Shown piece by piece: positions 5,312-57,834 of a DNA stretch of 64,000 nt (positions are counted from its first letter, which is position 1; each line of letters begins with the position of its first letter). Source of the stretch: Chloranthus sessilifolius (taxonomy: Eukaryota; Streptophyta; Magnoliopsida; Chloranthales; Chloranthaceae); contig CM037593.1 in the NCBI GenBank assembly GCA_021018995.1, positions 13,296,088-13,360,087 on the forward strand, read 5' to 3'. The position numbers and the translations under genes were made by a program. The notes beneath the pieces were generated by a model. That model was not told where the DNA came from and did not search any database. It saw nothing but the letters and a program-made list of their open reading frames with translations.

Positions 5312-5420
5312 TTAAAAGATGGGAAATTTACCTGATCGGCCCTGTCAGATACGCCTTTTACGTCAGAAGCCCTGTAGTTTCACCTTTACCCAAACCAACC
5401 AGCTCCAAGCATAGCCAACC
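5312..5420 (+). repeat. Left target duplication (5312-5320) and left TIR (5321-5420)
   Basis: TTAAAAGAT precedes the TIR. The TIR reads GGGAAATTTACCTGATCGGC and continues through CAGATAC, CCTTTTAC, TCAGAAGCCCTGTAG and TTTACCCAAAC. The reverse complement of 14829-14928 matches it almost base for base over the first 80 bp, with scattered C/T and G/A differences, then more loosely to about 100 bp. Confidence 0.96.
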
Positions 5421-5609
5421 CTAAGGAGAGTAAAAGGTCCAAATTACTCCCTTCTATGATTTTCTTTAACCAACAAAGCATCCTCTTATTCCTCATTTTA
5501 TCCTGCAAAAAAGTTAGAGGTGCAAAACCTTAGACGACGTCTCCTTCCTTAGTCTGATCTGCTCCGATTTGCTATTTCGAAGAAAAAAATAGAGGCTTGG
5601 GAGAAGAAG

Positions 5610-6054
5610 ATGACTATATTTCTCCATTGTCACACGAAGAACCTACAGTTTGTCCTTGCGACGCGAGGTATCCTACTTAAACCCCATTTTCAGTTTATTA
5701 GTGTCTCTTAATGATGTAGTATCTCCTATTCGTGCAGTATAGGAAAGTCTTTATATCCTTGGATCGTTTTTTTTTTTAAATATATATCGATTGCAAATAC
5801 AATCGTCATCGACTCCATATACAGTCGATAACGATTATATATACAATCGATATCAATTGTATATATAATCGTTATCGACTGTATATGGAGTCGATGACGA
5901 TTGTATATATAATCGTTATCGACTGTATATATAATCGATATCGACTCTATATATAGTCGTTATCGACTTTATATACAATTGACGAAGATTTATAGTCGTC
6001 TTTTCTCTTTTGTTTCATCAGTCTTATGACCCCTTCCTTCTCATTCTTAAACAG
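5610..6054 (+). other. Possible 5' leader and first intron of the MULE transposase
   Basis: An ATG at 5610 opens a short frame ending at a possible splice donor (GCGAG before GTATCC, 5668). An acceptor-like CTTAAACAG lies directly before the ATG at 6055. Palindromic array 1 lies between them. The phase across this intron does not join cleanly, so the leader may be non-coding. Confidence 0.35.
5781..5998. repeat. Palindromic array 1 of the MULE
   Basis: Repeats of TCGWTATCGA alternating with 12-bp AT-rich spacers such as CTGTATATATAA, giving a 22-bp period. It lies between the left TIR and the first clear transposase exon, probably in an intron. Confidence 0.92.
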
Positions 6055-8802
6055 ATGATGACGGACGTGAGGATTCCTCTTCTTTGTCACTATGATGGCC
6101 TTCTTGTAAACGATGATGGCTTGTATGAAGGTGGCCGACGGAGGGTTATTAACATTTCAATTGATATTTCTTATGAACAATTCATAAGGCGAATGTCTGC
6201 TGTCAGTTTTGCGAATGCGGATGAAATAATTTCCACAAAGTTTCATATGAAGATAGTGAATATGCCTGTGGTTGCCGACATTTAGACTCTGATGATTTGG
6301 CCACCTTATTTACGTTTTATAAATTCGGGGTGGACGTCATAAAAGTATTCATCATTAAGGAATCGTCATCCTTCCCAGTCGAAGCTGAACAAGTAGATCT
6401 CGGCGGGACTGATTTTGTGACTCATTCATTTCAGCCATGTAAGTTTGAGGATGAAACTGTATACGATACCGTCCCGTTAGGAGATGACGGTTATATTGCG
6501 GCGAACGATGGCATAGGGAAAGCAACTTTTGATTTAAACAATGTTCTGATTGAATCGTATGATGACCCAGTAAAATACATGCATGGGTCACAACAATGTA
6601 GTCAATGGTTAGACTACACTTCAGAAAGGGTGGTAGATACCGACGATTTATGTCATATCTTCCTCGGTGGATGGACAACTTGATTTACTCAAGAATTATG
6701 TTCTACCATGCCATCAATGGGAATTACCAGAGAAACTCAACCCCATGTCCATACACATGAGCACCCCTTCAGTGAAGGGCCTAGCCAACTACGCCATTAT
6801 CCATTCGGTGAAGGATCCGATCAATCACATCAGAACCCCTTCGGTGAATGATCTAGTCAACCACCCAAGAACACCGCTAGTGAATGGCGTAGTCGTCCTC
6901 AAGCCACTAATGAAGATACCTTAGAAGAAGAATATGAAAGCGAACCGAATGAGTTTATCAAAAAAGATCCGAAAATTTTTGTGAGAGACATTTACAATCC
7001 CCTAGTAGACGGAGATTACGAAATGTGAGAAACATCGGGCGACTCCTCCGATGAAGAGGTGGAAACTGAATATCGAAATTGGACGTTTAAAATTGGAGAG
7101 ATCTTCCGAGACAAACAAACATTTCAAAGAGAATTGAAAGAGCACGCGGTGGAGAAAAACTTTTAAATTCGGCCTTTGAGGCCCTCTAGTTATCGAGTGA
7201 CAGCCGGATGCTACGAACCCGATTGTTCGTGACGAATACATGCGTCTAAATTGACTGGGCTCAATTCTTTCCAAATCAAGACATTTAATAGTACTCACAC
7301 ATGAGGAGCCGCTAAGATCGGACCGCACAGCCACCATAATGCAACAATCTCCTTCGTAGCGAACTATGTACGGGATAAACTTATGGAGGGATTCGACTAC
7401 ACACTGGCGTCGATAATATTTGATATTGCAAAAGCTTATAATGTGCAAATCTCATATGCAAAGGTTTGGAGGACAAAAGAACTTGCCCTTAATGATAATA
7501 GAGGCAGTTGGGAAGGACAATTTATTGATCTACCGGCTTACGTGAAGGAGATGGAGAGGGTAGATCCTAATGTACAAACATCCTTTCAACTTACGCTTGA
7601 CGGTAAGTTTCAAAGATTTTTTTAGAGTTTTGGCCTATGCATCGGAAGCTACCGCAATACACTTCGTCGCATATTACTTGTAGATGGCACACACCTACGA
7701 GGACGTTTCGAAGGGATCCTACTTATCGCCTCTGCGCAAGATGGTGATGGTCATATATTATCGTTAGCATTTACCGAGGTCAAGTTAGAAGAAGAGGATA
7801 CGTGGATGTGGTTTCTTGAACAGGTAGGTGCGTTCGTGATCGGTGGGTTTAACGAAGATTTCGTATTTATCACGGACAGGTCGAAGGGTTTAATAAATGC
7901 GGTGAAACGTATCTTCCCTAACGCATATCACAACTACTACATACGGCATATGACACAAAATTTGCAGCACAAGTATCCCAAAAATAATGTGAAGGGTCTA
8001 TGGTGGTGCGCCGCGCGTGTATATTCGAAAGAGAAATTTGATTATTTTATTAACGAAATGAAGAAAGATTCTATTGATCCTTGGGCCGTAGAATATATTT
8101 TAAAAATAGATCTGAAGCATTGGGCACGCGCACATATGGAAGAAAGGCAATACGATTCCCTGACTACGAATATTGCCGAAAGTTTAAACAACGTACTAAA
8201 GATAGCTCGAGAGAGACCAATTATCGACTTAATCAGAACTACTAGAGAGAGTCGCCGATCATTTTCAAAAATGCAGAGAGATATCTGAGAAATGGACCAC
8301 CCTCCTCTGCCCGAAAGCAGACGCGCACATGAAGAAGGTGTTGCAATGGGCCGGTAGAAAGAGATCTCAATCATACGGGCGTGATCAATTTCAAGTCAAT
8401 TCCAGAAATTTCATTCATCACGTCGACTTGGAACACAAGACCTGTAGTTGCCGCCATTGGTACATTCATGGCTTGCCTTGCTCCCATGTCGTGGCGGTTA
8501 TCAATCGAAGAAGTTACGACTACCATAATTTTTGTGAGAAATGATTTTTCACCACTTGCTTTAAACAAACATACGATGAGCAATGGGTTCCCACCCTCGA
8601 TAAAAGTCAATGGGAGTTCCAAGCAGAGCAACTCCCTGAAAATATGAAAGTGAGACCACCCTATTATTACCGAAAGGAAGCCGACCGTCCGAGGAAGAGA
8701 AGGATAAGGTCTAAGGGTGAGGTTAGGGCACTACAGTGTAGCAGGTGCAGTGAATATGGTCACAATCGCAGGAGCTGCACGGCAATGGGACCGATGGGTT
8801 GA
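6055..8802 (+). pseudogene. MULE transposase (MURA-like), decayed
   Basis: In order: an N-terminal region (MTDVRIPLLCHYDGLL), an acidic linker, a MuDR-like DNA-binding region (about 7077-7250, from NWTFKIGEIFRDKQTFQREL), and the MULE catalytic domain. The first Asp is in VDGTHL (7683), the second in ITDRSKGL (7875), and a likely Glu in NIAES (8178). Then follow a SWIM zinc finger, CSCRHWYIHGLPCSHVVA (about 8436-8490), and a CCHC knuckle, CSRCSEYGHNRRSC, just before the stop at 8800-8802. One frame runs from about 6285 to 8288 with in-frame stops (for example 6681, 7623, 8286); frame shifts lie near 6280 and 8300-8328. Several stops replace expected Trp, Arg or Gln codons, as C-to-T decay would produce. 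The protein would cut and join the element ends in the nucleus. Confidence 0.93.
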
Positions 8803-8894
8803 TAGTGTATATTTTTAATAATGATAGATTGAATGTAAACGAGAATATATATTTGCTAAGAAATTCAGAATCCATGTTTTTTTACTGTAATAGT

Positions 8895-9231
8895 CTTTAC
8901 CGATTAATCATAGAGTCGTTATCGACTGTATACATAATCGATATCGACTCTGTACAGAGTCGCCATCGACTATCTATAAAGTCGATATCGATTCATTTAA
9001 GAATCGATATCGATCACTTATATAATCGATATTGATTGTATATAGAGTCGTTATCGATTATTTATATAGTCGATGACGACTCTATATAAAGTCGATAGCG
9101 ACTCGATATAGAGTCGTTATCGATTATGTATATAGTCGATGACGACTCTATATATAGTCGATAGCGACTCTATACAGAGTCGTTACCGATTATTTATATA
9201 GTCGATGACCACTCTATATGTAGTTGATAAT
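8895..9231. repeat. Palindromic array 2 of the MULE
   Basis: About fifteen dyads of the RTCG-N4-CGAY type with spacers such as CTCTATATATAG. It fills the gap between the 3' ends of the two convergent genes. Variants with ATGA or ATAG in the core are common here, so single arms drift while the CG-containing ends stay. Confidence 0.92.
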
Positions 9232-10280
9232 GGCTGCGATTTCTACTTTTTAACTACAGCTACATAAAAATGGTGTAATTATATTAAAAAAATTTCATTT
9301 ACAAAGAATATTTCATTTACATTTACAAAAATATTAAAATACAACAACACTACTGCTGCGCCCCCTCCTTTTTTTCGTCCTCCGCTAGTACTCCTCTGCC
9401 ATCGCCGGTGTATGTAGCCGGTGAATGGCCAATTTCTGCCCTGATCTTATCCATATCTGATTGCGCGAAGTCAAATTTCTTCCCCATCATGAAGTACTCG
9501 ACATACTTCACGACAAACACTCCACAATCACACGAGTTGGTCTGTCGGGGGAGGGTTTTGATCTTGCAGTCACTAGATGACCAAGGATAGTTCTTCACGA
9601 TCAGTGCAGTGGAGTTACCGTACGAATATAAAATCGTGGGAAGGTATTGGGTCTATTTCAAAATAATAGAGAAGAGTGTCAGATATGCGAAGCTAACAAT
9701 GATAAAAGATATGCTAAGTAAAATATCTTACCAGCGCTTACAATTGGGACACATATCTTTCCTTGGAGGGCCTATTAAATATAGGGTCGACGATCATTAT
9801 GGATCGTTCGACTACCTTCACGATTGCAAGCACTCAGTGTAGTGATTGTTCTGAATGTATTGACATAAATATCTACAAAAAGTAATATAATCTCAAATGG
9901 TATGATAGAAAAATTAAAAAGAATAATTATAAAAAGGATAAAACCATACAACGCTGCATTCGTGAGCCCACAGATTCCGAAACTCATTGAAGAAGAAAGT
10001 TTCCATCAGCTTCTTCCCTTCGGTCTGTTCTTGTCTATAGGCAGCCCACCGTTGAACTTGAACCTCGAACGATTGTTCGTATAATTTTTCAGCAAGCAGG
10101 AACTTGTTGAAATCTCTCAGTTCATAGCTCATGAACATCAGCGCGGTAGGGTCCATAAGGAAGTTTTTGTGCTTTTTATTCGGATGAATTTTATCATCAA
10201 TAACTTTCAAATGTCTCAGGTAGGCACCTATAACCTGAAGCCAATGCAGTTAGATTAAAATATGCAGTTAGAGTTAAATA

Positions 10281-10512
10281 CATAATCGTTATCGACTCTA
10301 TAAGTCATCAATGACGATGACTTAAGTCATCGTTCTCGACTCTCCAATTAATCAATATCGATGACTTACAGAGTCGATAACGATTACATAGGCCATCGTT
10401 ATCGACTCTATAGGCCATCGATATCGATTAATTGGAGAGTCGATAACGATTACTTAAGTAATCGTCATCGACTCTATAACGAATCGATATCGACTCTATT
10501 TCGAGTCGTCGA
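10281..10512. repeat. Palindromic array 3 of the MULE
   Basis: 22-bp-period dyads inside an intron of the Ulp1 gene, between the exon ending near 10558 and the exon starting near 10218. Spacers vary (for example CTCTATAAGTCA and TACTTAAGTAA) while the RTCG...CGAY ends persist. Confidence 0.9.
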
Positions 10513-11268
10513 CAGCTTTAAATATTCTTGTTTTTGCCTACAGTATGGTAAACTTACAAAGTTATCCACGAACTGCGTGGCCGCTAGACATCTGAAGGAT
10601 TGCACCACCAGTGTATACTTGTCGACAGTGCTTACATAGTCGTTGTATAAATAAAGGCCAACGTAACTAATCTTCACAAAAAATATATAAATAATAAAGT
10701 TAAAGATTCAGGGAAGAATAACTTACTCGTCCTCCTTCAGAGGCTTATTCCATATATCTAGCATATATTTTTGCTCCGCTGTCAGCTCAGGTGAAAGCTC
10801 AGCAGGAGAATCTTCAACCGTAGACCCAGGACCAGCAGTAATGAGTGCCACCGGTCCAGGCTCAGCAGTTGGTCCTTCAGCAGTTGGTCTTTCGCTGGCC
10901 TTCTCGGTAGACTTCTTTACAGCCCTTCGTTGTGGCTTAGGTCTGACGGCAGCTATTTTGCTGAGTTTCCCTTGTCTAGGTCTTAAGCGAAGCTCAGCTT
11001 GTTGGTGAGGCAATTGGGAAGAGGTTTCCTCTTCACCAGCAGGACCCTTATCAATTTGAGTCTCAGGCTGCTCGTCAGCAACTGTCGTCACCTCATCAAT
11101 GGGAGGAGGAGGAACCTGATGCATAGGAGCTGATGGTTTCTTATCGACGGCTGTGTCGCACACCTTCGATATCAGCTCCTCAATAGCCACATCCTGTACA
11201 TCGAAATAATGGTGCAAAATAAGAATTAATTTTTTGTCCCCATTTTTAAATGTCCAAATTGATTTTAA

Positions 11269-11475
11269 ATATAATCGTTATCGACTGTATATATAGTCGA
11301 TATCGATTTTATATATGATCGTTATCGACTCTATAAACAATCGTTATCAATTGTATACAGAGTCGATATCGATTGTAAATATAATCGATATCGACTGTAT
11401 ATATAATCGATAACGATGTTGTATATTATCGTTATCGACTCTATATGCAATCGATAACGATTGTGTATATCGATT
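11269..11475. repeat. Palindromic array 4 of the MULE
   Basis: Dyads of the form TCGATATCGA or TCGTTATCGA with CTGTATATATAA-type spacers. It occupies the intron between the coiled-coil exon (ending 11521) and the Pro/Glu-rich exon (starting 11193). Confidence 0.92.
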
Positions 11476-12149
11476 TATGTTAACAAAACTGAACATATAA
11501 ATCCAGATTTCAAAACATACCTTAAGTCTCGCCTCCAATAAATTTTCAAGGAGTTCTTTTATATTCGCCTGACCCTTTCTGACCAATGAGTTGTAGTGAT
11601 TTAACTTCTGCAACTCCGCATCCCTTGAATTCAGCCGCTCTTTGAAGGAGTTGCATAGTTTCTCTACATAAGCGTAATGTTTAGCCAGGGCCTTATTCTC
11701 TCCCTCCAAATCGCTCACTCTTTGGGTGAGCTTCAAGTTCTCCAGCGTCAAATGGTAGACCCTCCTCAACAAAGAATCATTGGAGGTGGACGGTTCATTT
11801 GGCTATCTTTCATTGAGCTCTCCTTGGTGGCCCCTAGTTCTTAGTGACCCGCTCCCACATGGGACGGGCCCTTTTCGAGGGGTTCTTCTTCCACGACGTC
11901 GTCGTCATCCCATTCTTCCTCTTCAATATTCTCGACCGGAATGTAATTTCTTTTCTTCTTCGGCCGCATCTCTTCCACAGCTTTCTTGACCGATTCTTTC
12001 CTCTTCCCCCCAACCTCCTTTTGAACCTGTAGATATTCTCTTAGCACGGGTATCTCTAATTCAAAGCCCTGAGGCACGAGGGGAGCGCAAACCTTTTGAA
12101 AGAAAAGGAAATATGGTAAATAACAGAATAAAATGATCATATATATAAT

Positions 12150-12401
12150 AAATCATTCTCGATTATGTAAAGAATCGGTACCGACTATTTAATAAATCGT
12201 TATCGATTCTGTACTGAATCGCTATTGATTATTTAATGAGTTGTTATCGACTACTTATTAAGTCGTTATCGATTCCTAAATAAATCGTTATCGACTTATT
12301 AAATAGTCATTATTGATTCTATACTTAATCGTTATCGACTTACTAAGAAGTCGATACCGATTCTGTAATGAATCGTTATCGATTCTAGAATGAATCGGTA
12401 A
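12150..12401. repeat. Palindromic array 5 of the MULE
   Basis: Dyads of the same type with more diverged spacers (for example TTCTGTAATGAA and TTATTTAATAAA). It fills the intron between the DUF1985-like exon (ending 12432) and the next exon (starting 12092). The CG-containing arms are better kept than the spacers. Confidence 0.9.
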
Positions 12402-13321
12402 GTTGCTTTTTGAATTGGCAATACCTCATACCTTGCTGTCAAACATCTGTCCGTGAGTGTAACCTTTGATCCTTGGCTGCGCCCTGTCCGACCATTTCAG
12501 CAGTCGTGGGAAAGGGTCATCGAGGCCTAGCTGGGATGGCGATATATCGGGCAGGATCTCATAAGCCCACCATTGAAGTACACATATGCATCCATATGTG
12601 TTGTACGTCTTCAGGGCTTTATCCATCTCGGCTGTCTTTCTATTCATCGCACCCTTCATTATATACTTGATTAAGTCGTGGTAGATGTGCAGACCCCACG
12701 GAGTTCGGTTAAAGTTCTTCACATCATCGATGAGGTCGATGTGGTCTTCCGAAAGCTGATGGTGGGACCTGGGGAAGAGAAATATGCACAACACAAATAA
12801 AAGGGACAATTTTACGAAGTCCTCATCACTTTTCGCTCTCCAAATTGCAGCATCTATATGAGACCGGAAAATTTTTCTAGGAGGCGTTCCACGAAAGTAT
12901 TTGTGTCGAATTGTTTATTCTGCCGGTGGTTTAACGGATGGGGTATACTTTTTTGGGCCAACTACGGCAAGGCCCAGTATCAATGCAATGTCTATCTTCC
13001 GAAGATAGACATCAGTCTTCCCAATTCTTAAGTGGTTTTTTTCAACCCAAAATGTCAACATCGCATCCACCACATCGGATAGAAATCCCACACCCTTAGG
13101 CATTTGAAATATTCCACCAAAAACTAAATCTCTCAGCAACTTCTTTCAAGTTGGGGTAGCATTTTCGTAGAGACTCGAAATGGCAGTGGACGAACACTTC
13201 GCAACAGCTCGGTGTACAACCATCTTGACGGCCTTTTGAAATGAACTATAATAAAAAAGAAAGGAATGAGCCCCAAACTAACAAGGATAGTTTAAATGTT
13301 GAATGAAATGTAATATATAAA

Positions 13322-13631
13322 ACTGATATCGATTACATATAAGCTCGATATCGATTACATATGTAATCGATATCGACTCTATATGTAATCGATATCGAGT
13401 CTAAATGTAATCGTTATCGACTCTAAATGTAATCGATATTGATTCTAAATGTAATCATTATCGACTCTAGATGTAATCGATATCGAGTCTAGATATAATT
13501 GATATCGACTCTATATGTAATCGATATCGATTCTAGATGTAATCGATATCGACTCCATAGTCGTCATCGATTACATATAAAATCGCCATCGACTATTTAT
13601 ACAATCAGTATTGACTCAATATAAAGTCGCA
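13322..13631. repeat. Palindromic array 6 of the MULE (most regular)
   Basis: The clearest array: TCGATATCGA (10 bp, perfect palindrome) alternating with 12-bp spacers, of which TTACATATGTAA is also a perfect palindrome. The period is exactly 22 bp, so dyad centres recur every 11 bp. It lies in the presumed first intron of the Ulp1 gene. Confidence 0.94.
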
Positions 13632-14380
13632 ATTATCTTAAAATATTTATTTACATTGAATATATTTAATATACAGACTCAAAAGATTTCATGAAGTCGC
13701 AATTGAATCAAAATGTTTCATTTACTTTCAAAAATTTTCAATTACATTCATAATATTTCATTTACAATTAAAAATGAAAATAAAATCTGGCAGCAACATC
13801 CTAAGGAAGATTCTTCGATAAAAGCGGTCCTCCGCTTCTAACCAAAATTTAGGAAGATGGATGAAGAGCAAGTGGTGGATGGGGTGGAGAGGCGGGTGGT
13901 TCCGTCTTAAGTTTCTTTTTCTTTCTTTTATTCTTTTTCTTTTCTTCCTTCTTTTTCTTTTCTTTCTTCTGCAAAATTTCCATTACTTCATCGTACTCGT
14001 CCCACAAAAACTGCAGAGGATCTGATTCTGGTGGTGGTGGTGGGTCCCCCCATACAGGCTCGAACTTGATTGGGTTATAGTAGATTTTTTCTTCGTCGTC
14101 TGACATTGGAAAAAATATGGGCTGGTAGGGATGATAGGTTTGCTAAGTACGAACTAAACCTGTATTTAAAGCTCCTAGATGGTGGAATACGAATCGTTGT
14201 ATTAAATTTTCTCATTCTTCCAAGCTTACTTGCCATAATAGTTTTACAAAAGGGTAGTTGGCAATAAATTTAACATCGGCTGAGATAAATATAAAACCTC
14301 GTATGATTTATTATGGGTTATATCATCGAGGGTAATAATTATAGGGAAATTAATTCATATGATGGGTATTAATTATATGC

Positions 14381-14560
14381 ATAGAGAGTCGATATCGATT
14401 TTTAATAGAGTCGTCATCGACTATTTATATAGTCGATTACGACTACATATGTAATCATTATCGACTCTACATGTAATCAATAGCGACTCGATATGTAATC
14501 GGTAACGATTACATATAAGATAAATATCGATTACATATAAGATCGATATCGATTATATAT
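14381..14560. repeat. Palindromic array 7 of the MULE
   Basis: Dyads of the same type between the 5' end of the Ulp1 gene (14106) and the right TIR (from 14829), that is, in its presumed promoter region. It mirrors array 1 at the other end of the element. Confidence 0.92.
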
Positions 14561-14828
14561 GGGAAAACCTTAAAAAATTATGTCAAAATGTGCACCAAAG
14601 AGAGGAGAAAAAAATAATCTAAAGCAATGGAAGGTAATTTTAATTCCAACTTACAGATTTGGTAGCTTGAAGATTGGAGTTCTGAACGCTAGCGCCTCCG
14701 AAGCGACAACGACTCTCCACCGACTTCGAATGAAAAAGTAAAAAGTAAAAAATGTAAATAGTAATGATTTGAAAAGATGACGGCTATTTATTACATTGGG
14801 GGTAGTTTGGGCATTTCCTAAAGGCAAG

Positions 14829-14937
14829 CGTTGGCTCGGCGCGGAGCGGGTTTGTTTGGGTAAAAGTGAAACTACAGGGCTTCTGATGTAAAAGGTGTAT
14901 CTGATAGGGCCGGTCAAGTAAATTTCCCTTAAAAGAT
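14829..14937 (-). repeat. Right TIR (14829-14928) and right target duplication (14929-14937)
   Basis: The reverse complement of this segment begins GGGAAATTTACTTGACCGGC and follows the left TIR through CAGATAC, CCTTTTAC, TCAGAAGCCCTGTAG and TTTACCCAAAC. TTAAAAGAT follows immediately and is identical to the 9 bp before the left TIR. Confidence 0.96.
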
Positions 14938-27440: not shown

Positions 27441-29895
27441 TGTAACGACCCCAAAAAAAAAAAAAAAACTAGAAAACGAGCCCAACTGCTGTGATCCGCG
27501 TGCCCGGCACGGAAACCAAGGTTGATTCAAAAACTTTAGGGTTATATTAGTTTAAATAATGTGGCACCGTGATGAGATGAGATCACGTGTGCAATTTCAT
27601 CTAGATCCTAGATGTGTAGAGGGTAGGTGGAACAAGCGTGTTCATGCTTCACACCGAGCGGGCACCAAGGGCAAAAGCAGAAATTTTGTGAGGAGGTAGC
27701 TTATAGAGGAAGGAAGGAGACAAGAGAGGAGACTTCCACTCTTCTTCTCCTTCATCCCCTTGCCCTAATTGCTCCATAGGTTGGAGATTGTGCTAAGAAA
27801 GTGTGAAAGAGATCCTTTGAGAGAGAAGAAAAGGGTTAACAAGAGTGAAGATGAGGGATTCCTAAGCTAGAGTTGCTAGACCAAGGTGATTGAGTTATTT
27901 GGGGTTTGAGATTGGTGTGAGAGGCCTTGATCCGAAGAGCTTCTCATGGGGTCCGGATCGTGGAGGAGCTCCGAGATCTAGGTTTGAGACCCTCTTTTCC
28001 GGCCATTGCCGGAACCTCAAGGAACCCACGAACAAGGTGAGTTGCGTATGATAAATAGGGTTAAAGGATCGTTTAGAGGGTGTATTTATGCAGTATTAAT
28101 GGTGATTGAACAACCATTAGTGGAGGAGATCAAAATGGATGGGAGGTGAACTCCAAATTTTTTTTCATTGGTGATCGATCACCATAGGGTGGTGATCGAT
28201 CATCGAGGAGCAGTGATCGATCACCAAGGACTGGTGATCGATCAATCTGTATAAGCCTTATGGGGAACAGAGACCCCAGAAGCTAGGAAGTTCTTGCCCG
28301 AGTTGTAGATCGATCACTAAGGTGGTGATCGATCTACAAGGGAGTTGGTGATCGATCACCAAGGTGGTGATCGATCTACAATGAGGTTGGTGATCGATCA
28401 CCAAGGTGGTGATCGATCAATCTGTATAAGATATTGATGTGATGTAAGGGGAGTTTTGAAATTGCATTGGTGATCGATCACCAAGGTGGTGATCGATCTG
28501 AGGTTGGTGATCGATCACCAAGGTGGTGATCGATCAACCTTGACTGTGTTGAGAGAGAGATAAGCAGGTTGGTGATCGATCACCAAGGTGGTGATCGATC
28601 TACAGTGGGTGGTGATCGATCAATGAGGTTGGTGATTGATCACTTACCCTGTTTTTGTCTGTCTTGGCTTTATAAAGTAGACAACCCGGATGTGGTGCCG
28701 GGTAATTCTCTGACACTCCTAACACTTAATGTACTGTGCCTATGGTATAGGATAAACCCTGACACGTCGAAAAAGCTTTGGATTTGCTTAGAAGATAAAC
28801 TGATCTGAGGTAGGAGAAAACCAACCTAAACTGCTTTTGAGTATGATTTCATGTTCATTTTATATCGTACTTCTCGATTTCTATTTTTAACAAGCATGTA
28901 TGCATATCATAAATTCGCTATCTTTGATTGCTTCCGATTCGTATCACGAAATGCTCGATTTCGCTATCTCGATCTGTGAGGTATATATGTATGTGATTTG
29001 ATGATTTAAACGATGATCCCCACCGACCGGTATATCCGATGCACTGGCACACTTGTGCACCGCTTGTAATCCTCGTTGCACTCCATAGATGAGGCATTGT
29101 TGCACTTTCACAATTGTTCATGTGAACGCATTGGTTGGGGTTTCCTATCGGACATTCTGTTTACTCCGTGCTATACAAATACACGGAGTTTCTTAAGTTA
29201 AATAGACACACTTTAAGTACTCGATAATATATCGCATGACATGTGACATCTTGCATAAAGTTCGACTTTTAAGCGATTTGTTTTGAGTACATGATCTGGA
29301 TTTGTCTTACATTATGAGATAGCATGATCGCATATTCAATTCATTTAGATGGTTTTTTCTATTGAGCTATGATGTAGCTCACCACGCTTCTGAAATCTTT
29401 TTAGGTTCGAGGCTGCATTTCAAGCGAGAGTGACCGGACTATCACCGGATCCCGAGGCGAGCGGAAGAGACGAGGAGACCAGACGTCGGCGGACGAGTTT
29501 TATCCGTAACTTTGAATGCGATGCCGACATTTTGTACTTGATCTTTTGGACTATTGTGTGCTGGTGGCCACCTTGTATATACATATATGATTCTACGTTT
29601 ATTTAGTTTATGTTAGTCCACATTCCATTTGAACCACTATCGGGAACCATTGTTTGGGTGATGTCGTCCATCACCGATGGTTCTTCTGGTTCCTTTTGGG
29701 AATGTGTATGTTTTCTTTACATTTAAATATTGTTGACGTGTATTTAGTGTAGAAATTGTTTGACTCGGACTATCATTGCTGGATGTGTCCACCTAGCTTC
29801 CGCTATATGCGCGGACACGTGTGATCGATCCGGGATCATCTAGAGTATGATCCTAACGGCACGGATTTCTGGAGACGGAAATCCGGGCTATTACA
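27441..29895 (+). repeat. 5' LTR of the 12.1-kb gypsy fossil
   Basis: Starts TGTAACGACCCC followed by an A-run and ends GGGCTATTACA. It contains the GATCGATC dyad array (28168-28640) and is directly followed by the primer-binding site. Compared with the 3' LTR, many of the small length differences fall at CTG trinucleotides. Confidence 0.95.
28168..28640. repeat. Array of GGTGATCGATCACC dyads in the 5' LTR
   Basis: At least 15 copies of GATCGATC, mostly as GTGATCGATCAC or GTGATCGATCTA, are joined by CAAGGTG- and TACAA-type spacers. The matching array in the 3' LTR is at 37800-38265, and a third, shorter one lies inside the element at 34977-35165. Confidence 0.95.
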
Positions 29896-29909: not shown

Positions 29910-30003
29910 CTAGGCCTTAGGTTGAACTATGGGTTCATAACGGATTGTTTTTACAATCTATATGTACTGATCAATGTTGTTGTTTTCACAATGACAGACC
30001 AGT

Positions 30004-31160
30004 ATGGGCCCTAAGTTCAGAGGAGGGCACGGCAGAGGTAGAACAGGTCAGAGAGAGATTCCTCTGAGGGATGTGCCCGAGGTTATAGGCTCGTCGAGGG
30101 GCTTGGAGTTCCTCTCACAAGCAAATGCGGTTCCATTGGGACCCAGAGGAGGTAGAAGGAGAAATGAAGAGAGGATGGAGCAGGTGTTGGAAGCATTAGC
30201 TACCAACGTCGCTCAACAGACAGCTGCTTTAGCTCAACAGGCAGCTAGACCACCCCATCAGCCTGGTGGATTTGCGGAATTTAGGAGAATGAGACCTCCT
30301 AACTTCTCAGGTCAAACGGATCCCATTGAGGCAGAAGGGTGGATAGAAGAGATGGAAAAGCTCTTTGGTGAGAAAGTGCGTTGGGGCCACTTTCAAAGCT
30401 GGACGATGACGCCGGGACCTTGGTGGAAGTCGGTGTCACAAAATAGACAGAGAGTTTCCTCACACCCTTGGACATGGGAGGAGTTTACGGAGGTATTTTA
30501 TAATAAATACTTTCCTAAAATTGTGAGGCATCAGTGGGAGGTGAAATTTATAGAGCTGAAGCAAGGTGCAATGACAGTCAGGGATTATGGAGCTGAGTTC
30601 GATAGATTAGCTCGATTTGCACCTCAGCACGTAGCTCTGAATGATGAGGCGAAAAGTTTCTGGGGTGAGACAAAATTCTGAGAAGGATGTCGCCATGTGG
30701 GAAATGGAGACTTATGAGGGAGTGATGACCAAGGCACTGATAGCTGAAGGAGAAAACCAGAAACAATTCTCTAGGGGACAGAAGCAGGCGAGAGAGAGAC
30801 CATTTCAAGGGCAATCTCGGGATCTGAGAGCAAAACAAGAGGGCTAGATATTCAGGACCTCCGAGATACCCTCGCACTCTCGTGGGTGATTTCTTCAGAC
30901 CGAGTTCATATCGAGAGCGCGGCCTACATCTACCGAGATCATTTCCAATTTGGATCTTCGGTAGCGGGGCCTCGGTGACTCGAGGTGGACCTTCAAGAGT
31001 CTCGTCCTTCACTCCCATGATATGTGCAAAGTGTGGGAAACCACACAAGAGAGGAGGCTAGGAGAGACAGGGGCATGCTTCAGGTGTGGCAAGATGGGTC
31101 ACTTGGTTAGGAATTGCCCTGAGGAGAGCAAGGAGCGGACAGGATCGGTATCAACATAGA
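30004..31160 (+). pseudogene. gag region of the 12.1-kb gypsy fossil
   Basis: A basic N-terminus (RGGHGRGRTGQRE) is followed by a retrotransposon gag core ([18 protein letters not shown], then [20 protein letters not shown]). A CCHC nucleocapsid knuckle, CFRCGKMGHLVRNC, lies near 31079. The region is broken. A short AT-rich non-coding stretch separates it from the protease. Confidence 0.9.
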
Positions 31161-31429
31161 GATCATCTCGACCAATAGTCCACGGTCGAGCTTATGCTCA
31201 TCATGACGATGCTCGACATCGAACGATGTCATCCAAGGTATGAATTGAAATTCAATGAATGTGGTTTATTGATATAATGAATTAAGAATTTTGAAAATAT
31301 AGAAATTATTGAGTAATTATGATGTAAATAATATATGTATGCATGCATATTTTAAACGTTTGAAGTAACACTGGACTTGGCGTATAGGTGAACTGAATTT
31401 GTGTAGGAGTTGCGACATTTGCTTTTACA

Positions 31430-34400
31430 GTGCACGAGCCTTGATAGATCCAGGCTCTACGCACTCCTTTATACGACCTCAATTTACTAAGAAATTGGGT
31501 GCCACTCCAGAACAATTAGACTTTATTTTGGCGGTGTCCGCCTCACGGTAATCTGTGAACGCACTCACCGTGTGCAAATCAGTGGTAGTGGCAGTGGAAG
31601 AACACGAGACACGGTGATTTGATTCTCATTAGATATGAAGGGATTTGACGTCATTATGGGAATGGACTGGCTATCCGCATACCGCGCAAGTGTGGATTGC
31701 CTTCGGAAGATAGTGGTTTTTCGTCCACCTAAGCGACGATCATTTAGATTCCTTGGGGAAAAATCTAAGGTGGCCCCGTTGATATCCGCGATTGAGGCGA
31801 AAGGATGATGAAGAATGGATGCGTGGATATGTGGCTTTTCTACAAGAACAACGGAAGAAACAAATGTGCTATCCGATATTCACGTGTGTGAGTATCCCGA
31901 TGTATTTCGAGGAATTGCCCGGATTACCACCGATTAGAGAGGTTGAGTTTGCAATTAATTTAGCTCCGAGCACGTAACCGATATCTAAGGCTCCGACGGA
32001 TGGCTCCAATAATTGCAAAAGTTGAAGGAACAACTGCAAGAACTGCTTGACAAGGGATTTATTCGGCCAAGTGTGTCTCCTTGGGGAGCACCGATGTTGT
32101 TTGTCAGAAAGAAAGACGGCTCAATGCGCTTATGCATTGGTTATCGGCAGTTGAATAAGTTGACGATTAAGAATCGTTACCCGCTTCCTAGGATCGACGA
32201 TCTATTTGATCAATTGCAAGGAGCGAGGTTCTTTACGAAGATTGACTTGAGATCAGGTTACCATCAATTACGGGTCAAGACTGAAGATGTGGAGAAGACA
32301 GCGTTCAGAACCAGATATGGGCACTATGAGTTCTTAGTTATGCCATTTGGATTGACGAACGCACCCGCATCATTTATGGACCTGATGAATCGTATATTTA
32401 AACCACACTTGGACAAGTCGGTGGTTGTTTTCGTAGACGACATTCTTGTCTATTCCAAGACAAAGGAGGAACACGAAGAACATCTACATGTGATTTTGCG
32501 GACCCTTAGAGAACACAAATTATACGCAAAGCTCGGCAAGTGCGAGTTTTGGTTGAACCAAGTGAGTTTCTTAGGCCATATCGTCTCATAAAGGTATACG
32601 GTAGATCCCACAAAGATCGGCGGTTGTGAATTGGGAACGACCTAAGGCGGATGAGGTCCGTAGTTTTCTTGGTTTGGCAGGGTACTACAGGCGGTTTGTA
32701 GAAGGATTCTCTAAACTATCGAGTCCGCTTACTCAGCTTACAAAGAAAAGTGCTAAGTTTGATTGGACGGAACAATGTGAGAAGAGTTTCAAGGAAAGAC
32801 AAGCTAGCTATACCTTCCGCGGAGGAGGCTTTGCTATCTCTGACGATCAGATAGTGGGTTAGGTTCCTCAACCAAAGACAAGAAGGTTATCGACATGGCT
32901 CTAGAACAACGAAGGAACATGAGAAGAACTACCCGACTCATGACTTGGAGTTAGCAGCGGTGATCTTTGCTCTGAAAATTTGGAGGCACTACTTATACGG
33001 TGAGACATTTGACATCTACACCAACCACAAAAGCCTAAAGTACTTGTTTACACAAAGGACTTGAACATGCGACAGCGCAGGTGGATGGAGTTCTTAAAAG
33101 ACTACGATTGTTCCATCCAGTATCACCCTGGAAAAGCCAATGTGGTGGCGGATGCTTTGAGCTGAAGTCTTGACTCAATTGGCACATTTGATCACCAGTG
33201 CAAAGGTGGCATTTATTGGAAGACCGGCCTTATGTGATACGTTGATTGATGTTAAGGGTTGTACTTTGATGGCCACCATTGTGATCGGCCCACCTTGTTT
33301 GACAATATCGTAAACTCCAAATGGTCGATGGCGAACTCATGACGATTAGAAGAGATGTGATCAATGGGATAAGGCGATTTTTTCTATTAAGGATGATGGC
33401 ACCTTGCTATTTCGAGATCGGACATGCATACCGGATACAAAAGATCTAAAGGACACAATTTTGGAAGAAGCGCATAAATCTACGTATGCTATACATCCGG
33501 GTAGCACCAAGATGTACCAAGATCTCAAACGAAGTTTTTGGTGGAGAGGATTAAAGAAGGATGTGGCGGAGTATGTTTCTCGGTGTTTAGTGCCAAATAA
33601 GTGAAAGTAGATCATCGAATCCGAAGTTTGTTACAACCCTTGCGATGCAGTGGAAATGGGAAGCCATTTCTATGGACTTTATTCTAGGATTACCGAGTAC
33701 ACTGAGAAAGAACAATGCAATTTGGGTTATTGTTGACCGTTTGACGAAATCCGCACATTTTCTGTCGTATCGGACTACAATTACAGCCAACAAACTAGCC
33801 GAGTTATATTTGAAAGAAATAGTTCGATTACATGGCATACCTGTCAGCATCGTGTGTGATAGAGATCCTCTGTATACGTCGCAGTTTTGGCGACGGTTCC
33901 AAGAAGGCATGGGTACAAAATTGGAGTTCAGCTCAGCGTTTCATCCTCAGACAGATGGGCAGACTGAGAGAGTGAACCAGATAATAGAGGATATGTTGCG
34001 AGCATGTATGTTAGACTTTCATGGCTCATGGGATCAGCACTTACCTCTGATCGAGTTCGCGTACAATAACAGCTATCAGTCGAGCATTGGGATGGCACCT
34101 TATGAAGCCTTATATGGACGTCGATGCAAGTCTCCATTGAACTGGGAAGAAATCGGCGAGAAGCTTGTCTTGGGACCAGAAATGGTGGATAGTACCACTG
34201 AAACGGTTAGAGTAATACGTGAAAGGTTGAAAATGGCCCAAAGTCGCCAAAAGAGCTATGCCGATCTTCACCGAACGCAAGTGGAATTTCAGGTATAATA
34301 AATTACATTAATGATATATGACCATGGTTAAAATTAAACTACGAAAGAATTGACCCTTGTTTTTAGGTTGGAGACAAGGTGTTTGTGAAAATTTCGCCAA

Positions 34401-34784: not shown

Positions 34785-34976
34785 TAAGAAAGGTAAGCCT
34801 CTATACTTCGTCTAAGAATTCGTTGCCATAATTATAGATTGATGTGTGAGCATGCACTTGATGAATTTCTCTTTTTGGGAACGCTCTGTATAGCGTGTAT
34901 GAATCGGTAGTCTCAAAATCCGGACCGTCAATATTAGGGAGACTGATCAGATGAAATGTGGTGGTCCTGGCATCAG

Positions 34977-35165
34977 TGATCGATCTACACAAGCTGGTGA
35001 CCGATCACCAATGGGCCGTGATCGATCTACACCAAGTGGTGATCGATCTACAAGGGACCCCGTGATCGATCTACACAACTTGGTGATCGATCAATGACTC
35101 GGATTGGGACTTGAAGATTCCCCCGTGATCAATCACCAATGGGCCGTGAACGATCACCAATGGGC
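34977..35165. repeat. Internal copy of the LTR-type GATCGATC array
   Basis: GTGATCGATCTACAC, GTGACCGATCACCAATGG and GTGATCGATCAATG repeats sit between the end of pol and the extra ORF, outside the LTRs. The spacer phrase CACCAATGGGCCGTG is specific to this array, so it is not a simple fragment of the present LTRs. Confidence 0.9.
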
Positions 35166-37053: not shown

Positions 37054-39546
37054 TGTAACGACCCCAAAAAAAAAAAAAAAAAAAACTAGAAAGCAGGCAT
37101 TCTGCTGTGATCCGCGTGCAAACACGAAACCAAGGTTGATTCAAAACTTTAGGGTTATATTAGTTTAAATAATGTGGCACCGTGATGAGATGAGATCACG
37201 TGCAATTTCATCTAGATCCTAGATGTGTAGAGGGTAGGTGAAGCAAGCTGTGTTCATGCTTCACACCGGAGCGGGCACCAAGGCAAAACAGAAATTCTGC
37301 TGTGAGGAGGTAGCTTATAGAGGAAGGAAGGGAGACAAGAGAGGAGAGACTTCCACTCTTCTTCTCCTTCATCCCCTTGCCCTAATTGCTCCATAGGTTG
37401 GAGATTGTGCTAAGAAAGTGTGAAAGAGATCCGAGAGAGAGAAGAAAAGGGTTAACAAGAGTGAAGATGAGGGATTCCTAAGCTAGAGTAGCTAGACCAA
37501 GGTGATTGAGTTATTTGGGGTTTGAGATTGTGAGAGGCCTTGATCTCGTCAGAACGGTGAAGAGCTTCTCACGGGTCCGGATCGAGGAGGAGCTCCAGAG
37601 ATCTAGGTTTGAGACCCTCTTTACGGGTCATTGCCGGAACCTCAAGGAACCCACGAACAAGGTGAGTTGTGTATGATAAATAGGGTTAAAGGATAGTTTA
37701 GAGGGTGTATTTATGAAGTATTAATGGTGATTGAACAACCATTAGTGGAGGGAGATCAAAAATGGATGGGAGGTGAACTCCATTAATGATTTTTCGTTAT
37801 TGGTGATCGATCACCATAGGGTGGTGATCGATCGAGTTGATGATCGATCACCAAGGATGTGATCGATCAATCATAAGCCTTATGGGGAGAGAGACCCGGA
37901 AGCTAGGAGGTTCTTGCCCGGGTTGTAGATCGACCACTAAGGTGGTGATCGATCTACAAGGGAGTTGGTGATCGATCACCAAGGTGGTGATCGATCTACA
38001 ATGAGGTTGGTGATCGATCACCAAGGTGGTGATCGATCAATCTGTATAAGAAATTGATGTGGATAGAAGGGGGGAGTTTTTGAAATTGCATTGGTGATCG
38101 ATCACCAAGGTGGTGATCGATCTCTGAGAGGTTGGTGATCGATCACCAAGGTGGTGATCGATCAACCTTGACTGTGTTGAGAGAGATAAGTTGGTGATCG
38201 ATCACCAAGGTGGTGATCGATCTACGATGGTGGTGATCGATCAATGAGGTTGGTGATCGATCACTTACCCTGTTTTTGTCTGTCTTGGCTTTATAAAGTA
38301 GACACCCCGGATGTGGTGCCGGGTAATTCTCTGACACTCCTAACACTTAATGTATTGTGCCTATGGTATAGGATAAACCCTGACACGTCGAAAAAGCTTT
38401 GGATTTGCTTAGAAGATAAACTGATCTGAGGTAGGGGAAAACCAACCTAAACTGCTTTTGAGTATGATTTCATGTTCATTTTATATCTGTGCCCTGATTT
38501 CTGTTTTTAACAAGCATGTATGCATATCATAAATTCCTGCTATCTTTGATTTCTGTTTCCTGATTCGTATCCTGAAATCTGCTTCTGATTTCTGCTATCT
38601 GATCTGTGAGGTATATATGTATGTGATTTGATGATTTAAACGGATGATCCCCACCGACGGTGGTATATCCGATACTCGCACACTTGTGCACCTGCTTGTA
38701 ATCCTCGGTGCAATTGCACACCATAGATGAGGCATTGTTGCACTTTCACAATTGTTCATGTGAACGACGATTGGTTGGGGTATCCTATCGGACATTCCTG
38801 TTTACTCTGCTATCTGATCCACGGGAGTTTCTTAAGTTAAATAGACACACTTTAAGTACTCTGATAATATATCTGCATGACATCTGACATCTTGCATAAA
38901 GTTCCCAGCTTTTAACTGATTTGTTTTGAGTACATGATCTGGATTTGTCTTCTGTTATGAGATAGCATGATCTGCATATTCAATTCATTTAGATGGTTTT
39001 TCTTCTATTGAGCTATGATGTAGCTCACCCTGCTTCAAATCTTTTAGGTTACGAGGCTGCAGCGTTCTTGCACCGAGTGACCCGGACTATCACCGGATCC
39101 CGAGGCCGAGGCAGGGACGAGGAGACCAGACGCCCGTGGACGAAGTTTTATCCGTATGCGATGCCCGACATTTTGTACTTCTGATCTTTTGGACTATTGT
39201 GTGCCTGGTGGCCACCTTGTATATACATATATGATTCTACGTTTATTTAGTTTATGTTAGTCCACATTCCATTTCGGAACCACTATCGGGAACCATTGTT
39301 TGGGTGATGTACGTCCATCACCGATGGTTCTTCCTGGTTCCTTTTTGGGAATGTGTATGTTTTTCTTTACATTTAAATATTGTTGACGTGTATTTAGTGT
39401 AGAAATTGTTTGACTCAGACTACCGCTGCTCGGATGTGTCCACCTAGCTTCCGCTATATGGGCGGACACGTGTGATCGATCCGGGATCATCCAGAGTATG
39501 ATCCTAACGGCACGGATTTCTGGAGACGGAAATCCGGGCTGTTACA
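37054..39546 (+). repeat. 3' LTR of the 12.1-kb gypsy fossil
   Basis: Runs from TGTAACGACCCC to GGGCTGTTACA and is followed at once by the CCCTC duplication. It contains the GATCGATC array at 37800-38265. It is about 40 bp longer than the 5' LTR and nearly identical over long stretches. Confidence 0.95.
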
Positions 39547-41199: not shown

Positions 41200-44100
41200 A
41201 ATCTTTGGTGGCAACATCATGGCACCAAATGCCAATTCTCTCCATGTGCAGAAGGCAACAAACTTCCCCTTTGTGCAATTGGCTTCGCTGCAAGAACCAC
41301 TGGTGGTGCAAAGGGTTCATATTATGTGGTGAATAGATCTGATGATAACCCGAGTAATCCGGCTCCTGGAACTCTTCATTCCTTTGTCAATTATGCTGGA
41401 GAAAATGAAGGAGGAGCTTGGATAACTTTCAGAGAAAGTATGGTGATTACACTTAAGGACAAGCTATGGGTCAAATCTCACACGACTATAGATGGAAGAG
41501 GTGCGAATGTCACTCTAGTTGGGAACGCACTCGCTCTTGCAACAGTAGAGAATGTAATTTTGCATAACTTTGAGGTGTTCCCGACGGGGCAAAGTGACAC
41601 CGTCCATGTATTTAGTGGGTCACACAATGTGTGGATCAACCACTTGAGTTCACGTGATGGAAATTTAGGGTTGGTCAGTGTCCTTCAAGGGTCAACTGAT
41701 GTTACTATCTCAAATTGTTATCTTTCGAATCACAACTTCAATATGTTGTTAGGGGCAGCAGATGAAGATATCTCTGATAAGATTCTTAGGGTAACTGTTT
41801 ATAGGAATTGGTTTGATTCCTCAACGCAAAGGATGCCACATTGCAGGTACTTCAAATTTTCTTTTGAACACCTCATCGTGAGTGTCAGTGATGGCACTTG
41901 GGTTAAATCTCATTGTTTCCAGTGATCATGCACCTGGATGCATGCATACTTCTATTTATGATCACAAAAATTTGTGACAATTCACTTTTGGCCTTTCACT
42001 AGTTTCTCACAAAAAATTAGTGCAACTATGAGACCTGTCGGCTCCAGATTGACCCAAGTGCCACTATTGGCATTCGGATAGGGGGCCTTATTCTAAGTCT
42101 AGTATTATGACCGATGTCGTAATTTATTGTGTAAAGACCCGTATTTTGAACCCGAGTTAGACTGACCCTGTGTGTGTATTCGGCTCGGCAACCGACGTCA
42201 CCATTTGTTTTGGATTTTTATCTAGATGTGATTGTGCGGACAGATTTTAATTTAGAGCCCATTTGGACCCTCGTGCGAAAGTTGTGCACCGACCTCGGTG
42301 TAGCCGCTCAACACCGGACTTGAGTTTTAAAATTAGAAGTGTATAATACATAAGATGTGTGTGTGTGTTTTACTTTGTGAGCAATCCTATTATAAGAAGG
42401 AATTGCATTCCCGTATTATACTAGGTTTTGTTAAGAGAGGATAGTTACCCAACCGTGTGAAACTCCGTCTTCTCTCTTCTTCAATCATCGTAGGAGATCG
42501 GTTTAGAAAACCTCCTTCTCTAGAACCCTCTTTGTTGAAAGCACTTAAACCTTAGAAAGAACTTGAATCAACCTTGGATTCGTAGTTGGCTATTGGGAGA
42601 GGTTGAGATCATTGGGGGCGTGTTGGAGTTGTCTCTGTGAACTCGTGGGATCGATCGCGGCGCGAATCGTTGAGGAAACCCGTCGGTTTCGTTCCGAAGC
42701 TCCATTCGCGTGACTCATTTCTAATCTAGGAATCCTTAGATTAAAGGTACGTTTTAATTAAACTTTTTTATTAAATCATTAGATTAGCCATGGGTTTTAC
42801 TTTGGGATGTATGGGTTTCGATTCGAGTGAAAACCAGCGAAATCGCGTCGTTGTAGCTCGCTCGAGCGAGCTATTATCATCGCTCGAGCGAGGTATCACC
42901 GAACTCCGACATTGCCTTAGTATTTTAGTCATAACTTTTTATCTCGAACTTCGATTGAGACGATTCTTTTTGCGTTGGAAAGCTAATAGAAAAATCTACA
43001 ACTTTCATGTTTTGACCAACTAATGGATCAATTGTCTTGATGGTCAAACATATATGAGAATGTTACATCAAATCGCTTGAGCGAGCTATTATCATCGCTC
43101 GAGCGAGGTATCACCGAACTCCGACATTACCTTAGTATTTTAGTCATAACATTTTATCCCGAACTCCGCTTGAGACGCTTATTTTTGCGTTGGAAAGCTA
43201 ATAGAAAAATCTACAACTTTCATGTTTTGACCAACTCATGGATCAATCGTCTTGATGGTCAAAAATATATAAGAATGTTACGTCAAATTCTAGGATTGGC
43301 GCAACTTGCCTGTTTTGACTTGTTTTTGAGGAAACACTTAAATAGGTCTATATTATTAGTAATTAGAGTTAATCTTAACGCATGAACGTATATTGTGATG
43401 TAGATTGACGGCGAGAAGCCATCAATAGGACCTTTCTTGACTTCGCATAACTCCGAGTTTTGGTAGGAGAATCTCATCTTTACAGTATTTTATTTTAATT
43501 CGCATGGATATTTTGAATTAAAATCTTTGAACTTGCATATGCCATTGAAATCACATCTGTAAACTGAAATTGATATGAATGACTGAAAATCTAAATCTAC
43601 CTGAATCTCAAACCGAATCGCTTAAGCTCAAAAATCAAATCAAGAACCGAACTATGTATAAGAGACTTGCATCCGATTTATATTAGTATCTGATTTGTTT
43701 TATGATTGACTAACGACCCTCAAAAATTCTGAACAATTTCGGCACAAGTTTCCTCATTACCCAAGGGCTTGTTGCATCTGAAAAAGGGTTCATGAGCAGC
43801 GATGGTAGGTAGGGGTTCCCCATCGGTATATTCCCCGCTCTCGAGATATAGTTTACTCGGGAGGTATTTTAAGTTGAGGATTAAGTCATGAATTACGAAC
43901 TTTACATATAGAAGTTAGAGAAACTAAGACATCAAACATTCTGTTCTTTGAAACTGTTTTCACATTTAGAAATAAATCTTACATATGATTTCGCACCTAA
44001 ATTCAGCTTTATTATACGCTTATATGTTTGACAAGCTATATTCGATATTTGTTTTGAAACCATTTTAGTTAAAGTAAAATGTCAGATGTCTTTCTTCATC

Positions 44101-57100: not shown

Positions 57101-57834
57101 GAAGGGTACGAAAAAATTCAAAAAGTTCATTGTTAGCTGAAGGGTTAGCTGAAGGTCCACATTCACAAGCAAGAAGGCTCACCACTTATACTATTAATGG
57201 CTATAAATTTCGAACAATTGATAAAGAGAAGAAGGCTAAAACTCAAAATAGCGGTGTTGCCGTTTCGAAAACTATTACAAGCTATGCAAGTACAAAGGAC
57301 AAAAGGCCCATTGTAGGAGAGATAACATATTATGGTCGTCTAATAGATATAATCGAGTTAACATATTTTGAGCGTCTCAAATTTATACTGTTCAAGTGTG
57401 ATTGGGTTGATGTGACAACACAAGGTAGAGGAATTAAAACTGATGAGTTAGGATTCGCGCTTGTGAATTTTACCAAATTATTGTTCCCCACTCAGCAAGT
57501 GTCAGATGAACCATACGTTTTGGCCTCTCAAGCTACTCAAGTTTTTTATGTTCAAGATCAAATTGATCCGAATTGGCATGTTGTTGTGAAGACTAAGCCT
57601 AGGGACTTGTTTGATATGAGATGGGATGATAATGCTTTATTAGATAGTGGTACTTATGCCAACCAACAAACCTTCGAGGATGATAAAGATGACAATTGGG
57701 TAAGGGAAGATGTGGTTGGAACAACTGTTGATGCTCCTCCCCAGATGCGTGTTGCTCAACAAGCTCCTTCAACCGATTTCATTGATGATGAAGATGAATC
57801 AACTTTCGAATCTCAAGAGGATGCAAGTGTTTAA
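54113..57834 (+). pseudogene. TNP2 (En/Spm) CACTA transposase, five exons, decayed
   Basis: Exons: 54113-54141 (MDKSWMQKSR), 54235-56483, 56571-56831, 56910-57009 and 57097-57834, all with GT-AG borders that keep phase. Domains in order: transposase-associated region (GASIDGTLKCPCINCNN), TNP2 core (LPPWLCIKQPNIILSMLIPG, DIDVYLKLLIEELKELWEFG, LSGWSTKGKLACPLCNKDT), a DUF4218-like region (HYRWMYPIER, YLLTLKSYVCNRAQPEGSI), a DUF4216-like region (DVTTQGRGIKTDELGFALVN), and an acidic tail. Stops stand at 54641 (TAA), 55783 (TAG) and 56206 (TAA), mostly where Gln is expected, and one frame shift lies near 55185. TNP2 cuts the element ends. Few lesions mean recent decay. Confidence 0.93.

Follow-up and report, generated by a model that had tools for sequence, protein, structure and literature searches.

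The window analysed here, 64,000 nucleotides of Chloranthus sessilifolius (assembly GCA_021018995.1, contig CM037593.1, positions 13,296,088 to 13,360,087), contains a dead, decayed member of a large family of Mutator-like elements (MULEs), in which a transposase gene is accompanied by a VANC-like gene, with a DUF1985 part and an Ulp1/C48 part, and by seven arrays of a short palindrome located in the non-coding gaps. The family probably possesses an anti-silencing system of the VANC type, in which the DUF1985 part would read the palindrome, silent marks would be removed and the Ulp1 protease would act locally. In the samples taken, arrays are accompanied by the MULE family and the family by arrays, and the form of the motif follows the clade of the protein.

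Structure of the Element

The element spans 5321-14928, because its termini match as inverted repeats (87 of 100 positions identical) and are flanked at both ends by the 9-bp target site duplication (TSD) TTAAAAGAT. The transposase gene, on the plus strand, contains a MULE transposase domain (E 1.1e-16) and a SWIM zinc finger (E 3.7e-9) in Pfam searches; the VANC-like gene, on the minus strand and in several coding pieces whose exon and intron limits were drawn from open frames, ends in a Peptidase_C48/Ulp1 domain (E 3.6e-11), and its matches to DUF1985 (2.1e-4) and to the plant mobile domain (4.4e-7) are each under Pfam's cut-offs in this copy. The copy is dead, since there are stops in the DUF1985 exon and in the His-Trp segment of Ulp1 and the transposase is split over several frames. 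The features, including the terminal inverted repeats (TIRs), are the following.

5312-5320, left 9-bp TSD TTAAAAGAT, read directly; second copy at 14929-14937
5321-5410, plus strand, left TIR, right limit approximate; 87/100 match to the right end, similar ends in other copies
5781-5979, array 1, in the interval from left TIR to transposase gene; 5 core sites
6054-8802, plus strand, transposase gene with frame changes and stops, limits approximate; MULE domain 7626-8285, SWIM zinc finger 8233-8541
8900-9230, array 2, gap separating the two convergent genes; 9 core sites
9350-10235, minus strand, Ulp1/C48 part of the VANC-like gene from domain search, splice sites inferred; coding pieces 9350-9652 (Cys), 9742-9842 (His and Asp) and 9950-10235
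10280-10510, array 3, inferred intron; 6 core sites
10723-11195, minus strand, coding piece separating the coiled coil from Ulp1; without a Pfam family, matches in other copies
11262-11480, array 4, inferred intron; 8 core sites
11530-11802, minus strand, coding piece, possible coiled coil; weak Pfam matches only, heptads
11841-12105, minus strand, coding piece, basic then acidic; open frames, comparison with other copies
12146-12400, array 5, inferred intron directly past the DUF1985 exon; 7 core sites
12426-13230, minus strand, DUF1985/plant-mobile-domain exon, 5' limit approximate; in-frame stop at 12912-12914, counterpart in relatives matches VANC21
13315-13620, array 6, inferred first intron; 7 core sites
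13849-14105, minus strand, first coding piece of the VANC-like gene; open frame
14380-14562, array 7, between the 5' end of the VANC-like gene and the right TIR; 3 core sites
14839-14928, minus strand, right TIR, left limit approximate; match to the left end, other copies
14929-14937, right 9-bp TSD TTAAAAGAT, read directly

Palindrome Arrays and Their Association with the Family

The arrays hold respectively 5, 9, 6, 8, 7, 7 and 3 sites of the core TCGNTANCGA. All the sites of the window lie within the element (45/45) and within arrays (45/45), spaced in each array by exact multiples of 22 bp, with none in the remaining 54.4 kb or in the TIRs; first-order Markov shuffles of the element (n = 500) give a mean of 0.24 sites and a maximum of 3. 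Of the exact form TCGATATCGA there are 17 occurrences, where 0.07 would be expected. The claim of a 22-bp spacing rests on loci fetched from the genome: in 20 array regions plus the window element, successive sites with at most one mismatch are 22 bp apart in 249 cases, 44 bp in 81 and 66 bp in 24, other distances being few. The 22-bp unit corresponds to about two helical turns and its consensus has two dyads 11 bp apart, one in the core, with two CpGs per site, and the other in the AT-rich linker. The 9.6-kb MULE with a transposase, a DUF1985/Ulp1 gene and seven non-coding arrays described in the first-pass annotation is borne out by the TIRs, the TSD, the Pfam domains and the site counts; the 22-bp palindromic arrays stand as well, and the letters given for the motif had to be changed, since positions 4 and 7 vary, to TCGNTANCGA, usually inside the longer palindrome ARTCGNTANCGAYT.

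In the genome (2.17 Gb, 32 contigs) there are 2950 exact pairs TCGATATCGA-N12-TCGATATCGA and none of the reversed pattern. The 20 array regions (17 non-overlapping loci) represent roughly 20 of the 26 clusters formed by the first part of these pairs, and none lies beyond the first 21 Mb of contig C1; the overlapping regions L005/L006, L010/L011 and L016/L017 are counted separately in the motif cross-table and in the conservation, Ulp1 and compartment counts, and L013 is omitted from the cross-table and the compartment counts. MULE family sequence is present in all 20 regions, with coding matches in 19 and the terminal part alone in L013. When the element is masked, none of 28 protein queries from the family and neither TIR has a match elsewhere in the window. 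Starting from the protein, a genome search with the DUF1985 exon of the window (150 scored of 5509 candidates) gave identities of 83-90% apart from the self-match. Ten loci spaced down these 150, all without a stop in the match and chosen blind to arrays, carry arrays in every case (10/10), with 8-14 sites each flanking the exon on both sides. Family relatives with an open exon and arrays therefore exist, as four of the ten exons are open, three over 283 codons and one over 282. The pairing of gene and arrays would be weakened, as the first-pass annotation recognised, by arrays equally common outside the family or by the lack of any member keeping both; within these samples no outside arrays were found, and members with both exist. 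A protein database search with the window exon returned no match, which says little, the query being too short to reach full-length proteins.

The DUF1985 and Ulp1 Parts

Among the candidates proposed by Foldseek, the best structural match of the modelled DUF1985 part in VIA-align is VANC21, by a wide margin, and this part of the second gene is, by its predicted fold, a distant homologue of VANC21. The first-pass annotation had proposed a VANC-like self tag recognised by the Ulp1 protein or by a partner. That a DUF1985-type gene is paired with arrays specific to its family is supported by the VANC21 match, the association and the clade-wise motif; the reader is likelier to be DUF1985 than Ulp1, by analogy, because VANC proteins themselves contain DUF1985 (PMC5735166; here and below, published work is cited from the available parts of each paper). 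A coding piece near the DUF1985 exon resembles a coiled coil and would fit a protein sitting as a dimer on the palindrome.

The Ulp1 residues which we take to be catalytic, after yeast Ulp1, are kept in the relatives that cover them (His in 16/16, Asp in 15/16, Cys in 13/14), and the window copy retains His, Asp and Cys. The protease has probably been under selection while the clades spread, because the median ratio of non-synonymous to synonymous divergence between clades is 0.47-0.58.

Clades and Lineages of the DUF1985 Gene

The family comprises two clades, A and B; in B the second half of the DUF1985 exon shows 35-43% identity to the window (L005-L024). Clade B favours the longer CARTCGNTANCGAYTG: by compartment, 58, 53, 53 and 43% of its sites carry the outer C together with the outer G, whereas in clade A the figure is 31% on the left of the transposase and 0-4% in the other compartments. 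The fraction per element is at most 0.21 in A and at least 0.38 in B; with overlaps merged, 10 A and 7 B elements are fully separated (exact p 5e-5, a value that ignores shared descent). Labels assigned without the DUF1985 exon (L007, L011, L013, L020, L021 and L024 in A; L006, L014 and L016 in B) derive from the identity of Ulp1 and neighbouring coding pieces, or from the terminal part in L013, and all were fixed before motif forms were counted. In a DUF1985 tree of 42 rows each motif group falls on one side of a branch, with 5 changes against 23.6 in shuffles; the support of clade A is 84/85, the rows of the third motif described below are one place fetched twice, and a long-branch warning applies. 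The median synonymous divergence (dS) between A and B is 0.85 for DUF1985 (80 pairs) and 0.31 for the transposase (35 pairs, partly from other loci); because the latter is far below the former, the comparison suggests that transposase halves were exchanged between the clades and that arrays close to the VANC-like gene stayed with it.

The broader DUF1985 family was sampled at 20 loci, about every seventh row of 150 scored out of 4046 candidates, and TCGNTANCGA is present in none of them (0/20). Different repeats are found instead in some lineages. In particular, 42-bp repeats containing half-sites of the AAGCGATNNCGC kind follow the exon in L032, L038 and L043, similar half-sites occurring in L030 with no scored array. 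At L041, a locus identical with L055, TAGCGNNNCGCTA forms 21-bp arrays both ahead of the DUF1985 exon and on the 5' side of a 45%-identical transposase, with Ulp1 in between, and a search for the ends of this element found none. In the motif cross-table the core counts 426 in clade A, 190 in clade B and 0, 1, 0 and 0 in four other groups, and the second and third motifs, with 4 and 7 counts, are each confined to their own group. Two remaining groups (9 and 6 loci) show none of the three motifs within about 1 kb on either side of the exon, and some of their loci have short tandem repeats or recurrent words. Repeated CAAAATTTTG-like words, not clearly periodic, were also noticed near the exon of a further DUF1985 lineage (L035, L042).

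Conservation of the Core

Twenty loci were projected on the window; the copies are related and the alignment inside arrays may slip by whole units, so that the following numbers are descriptive. The share of differing cells is 2.2 and 2.5% for the outer T and A columns of the core, 10-19% for its C and G columns, 11-12% for the central TA, and 35 and 25% for the two free positions; most linker columns lie at 25-40%, with one at 11%, and the comparison rates are 13.1% for exons and 15.3% for the remaining non-coding sequence. Clear conservation beyond that of exons is thus confined to the outer T and A, and the C and G columns vary about as exons do although they belong to CpGs. Methylated CpG is highly mutable; the core retains its CpGs in 731 of 835 cells, compared with 1256 of 1918 in exons and 143 of 241 in other non-coding parts.

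Proposed Mechanism and Alternative Explanations

In the proposed mechanism the DUF1985 part would bind the palindrome ARTCGNTANCGAYT, probably as a dimer, and the spacing of the sites, 22 bp or about two helical turns, would place the bound proteins in line along the same side of the helix in each non-coding gap. The bound protein would then clear silent chromatin marks from the element, allowing expression of both genes and movement of family members, including those with dead genes; the Ulp1 part probably would act locally, removing SUMO from silencing proteins at the arrays. Of these steps, binding, dimerization, loss of methylation and deSUMOylation are inferred.

Several observations weigh against this scheme. 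A single-sequence search of solved structures gave no match, and the sole match of profile A2 among them was an unrelated chain (E 1.2). Shared descent alone could yield the correspondence between motif and clade. Moreover, CpGs outside the motif decay more beside the arrays (23-33% within 150 bp, 15-16% beyond 300 bp), in exons and non-coding parts alike (window and clade A copies), and this decay lends no support to the loss of methylation that characterizes VANC systems; C-to-T changes outside CpG, near versus far from arrays, are 10.8 versus 10.5% in exons and 10.5 versus 6.9% in non-coding parts. A protection of CpGs around arrays, considered as a sign of germ-line hypomethylation, was consequently dropped, the reverse having been observed. 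The core looks to have been kept by selection on the sites and not by a lasting unmethylated zone, because its CpGs are kept while nearby non-motif CpGs decay more. Heavy methylation near arrays would fit small-RNA-directed silencing, which targets the non-coding regions of VANDALs (PMC10398659).

A stronger version, tentative and rather unlikely, makes the protein a tethered deSUMOylase: DUF1985 dimers would coat the palindromic CpG sites, one per two helical turns, and the fused Ulp1 would strip SUMO from silencing proteins element-wide, the CpGs may let binding read methylation, and A and B, with a common core, different flanks and B-like sites retained in A left of the transposase, would be a self-tag in mid-switch.

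It is improbable that the VANC-like protein, while reading the arrays, merely activates both genes in the manner of an ordinary enhancer-binding factor and removes no silent marks, with Ulp1 as a passenger. Arrays adjoin the starts of both genes, and a transcription-activator route was weighed for VANC21 itself (PMC5735166); however, they also occupy four inferred introns and the gap between the gene ends, the catalytic residues of Ulp1 are conserved, and Hosaka et al. place the action of VANC21 on the marks first, arguing from hypomethylated copies without detectable activation (PMC5735166).

Somewhat more doubtful is the explanation of the arrays as binding sites of the transposase, or of a second transposition protein, for assembling the element ends. 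Many DNA transposons carry subterminal repeats and two of the seven arrays sit between a TIR and a gene, but the other five are in inferred introns or between genes, no site lies inside the TIRs, the clade A arrays around the VANC-like gene are unlike those left of the transposase, and the transposases of A and B are less split than their DUF1985 parts (median dS 0.31 versus 0.85, partly at different loci).

The chance that the arrays are neutral minisatellites, spread by slippage and transposition and read by no protein, is smaller still. Tandem repeats arise easily, in near-homologous copies the motif form would follow descent, and the exon-like variation of the core C, G and central TA columns (10-19%, exons 13%) favours such neutrality; on the other side are the outer T and A, differing in 2-3% while linkers of the same units mostly differ in 25-40%, the retention of core CpGs above that of exons despite their mutability when methylated, and the strict dyad symmetry and register across all seven arrays.

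Finally, arrays serving as host start points of small-RNA-directed methylation with no gain for the element, to which the CpG decay beside them and the targeting of VANDAL non-coding regions (PMC10398659) would correspond, are very improbable, since selection on the element should lose or scramble a pure host target, yet the outer core is its best-kept part, and host targeting and benefit to the element can coexist, as in VANDAL21.

Other Elements of the Window

A second transposon class with phased CpG palindromes occurs in the same window: arrays of the palindrome GTGATCGATCAC, with a spacing of about 19-23 bp, are found at 28169-28643, 34976-35165 and 37802-38264 around a Ty3-type gag-pol (29995-34295), a region with no match to the DUF1985, Ulp1 or transposase queries of the family. 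A 215-bp unit containing the palindrome TCGCTCGAGCGA forms two similar tandem pairs (42858-43288 and 50831-51261), near matches to pectate lyase at 41200-41922 (good) and 52412-52921 (weak). A Transposase_32 protein is encoded at 271-1455, and pieces of tnp2 and DUF4216 at 54644-57831 may belong to a CACTA element.

Comparison with Known Systems

The main counterparts are VANC21/VANDAL21 and VANC6/VANDAL6 of Arabidopsis thaliana, in which a MULE likewise carries a DUF1985-type gene and tandem, family-specific short motifs in introns, intergenic and terminal non-coding parts (PMC5735166); the coevolution of such motifs with VANC proteins is also published (PMC5735166). Like the VANC genes, the one described here lies on a MULE beside a mudrA-type transposase (MULE and SWIM domains, TIRs, TSD), and its arrays are tandem, family-specific and non-coding. 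The motif here is palindromic with two CpGs per site, whereas the Arabidopsis motifs YAGTATTAY, AGTTGTCC and AGTTGTAC are without CpG (PMC5735166); further differences are the TIRs, the Ulp1 in the same gene and the strict 22-bp register. Among titles and the beginnings of abstracts, a search that left most subscription papers outside its scope, no VANC-type arrays with a palindromic, CpG-bearing and 22-bp-phased motif were found.

The VANC principle is extended here to a large plant genome with 2950 exact tandem site pairs. The related proteins with differently phased arrays (22, 21 and 42 bp) and the two sister clades differing in motif flanks form a natural series, with which the joint change of VANC protein and motif becomes directly testable, and the fused Ulp1 would offer a concrete and testable way in which binding could lead to the loss of silencing. 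The abstract of Sasaki 2022 reportedly mentions that Ulp1 was gained and lost, and a helical periodicity.

The novelty claimed in the first-pass annotation for a SUMO protease as partner does not hold, Ulp1-carrying VANC genes and Ulp1 in melon MULEs with TIRs being already in print (PMC13317346; PMC2528002). In melon Ulp1 is found in MULEs including those with inverted repeats, in direct or reverse orientation, and Ulp1 MULEs are also present in grapevine (PMC2528002); in contrast to the element described here, the available part of that paper gives no link to DUF1985 and no arrays, and the word 'tandem' is absent from it. In Arabidopsis, silencing at an intronic repeat requires FUG1, a host protease of the Ulp type (PMC12177298). 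This links the enzyme class to repeat silencing, but FUG1 is a host gene serving silencing and not escape.

A close likeness for the fused protease is KIU (Kaonashi) of the Arabidopsis KI-MULEs and VANDALs, in which Ulp1, with conserved catalytic residues as here, is part of a VANC-type gene. According to a review, such genes recognise the non-coding motifs of other VANDALs that carry KIU, and the hypomethylation of these elements results; the review cites Sasaki 2022 for this and describes the precise role of Ulp1 as unknown (PMC13317346). In both cases Ulp1 is oriented reverse to the transposase (PMC2528002), whereas KI-MULEs are described as non-TIR (PMC13317346) and the Chloranthus element has TIRs. 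The system is VANC-like in protein and architecture and, because the element has inverted repeats, it is not a VANDAL in the strict sense.

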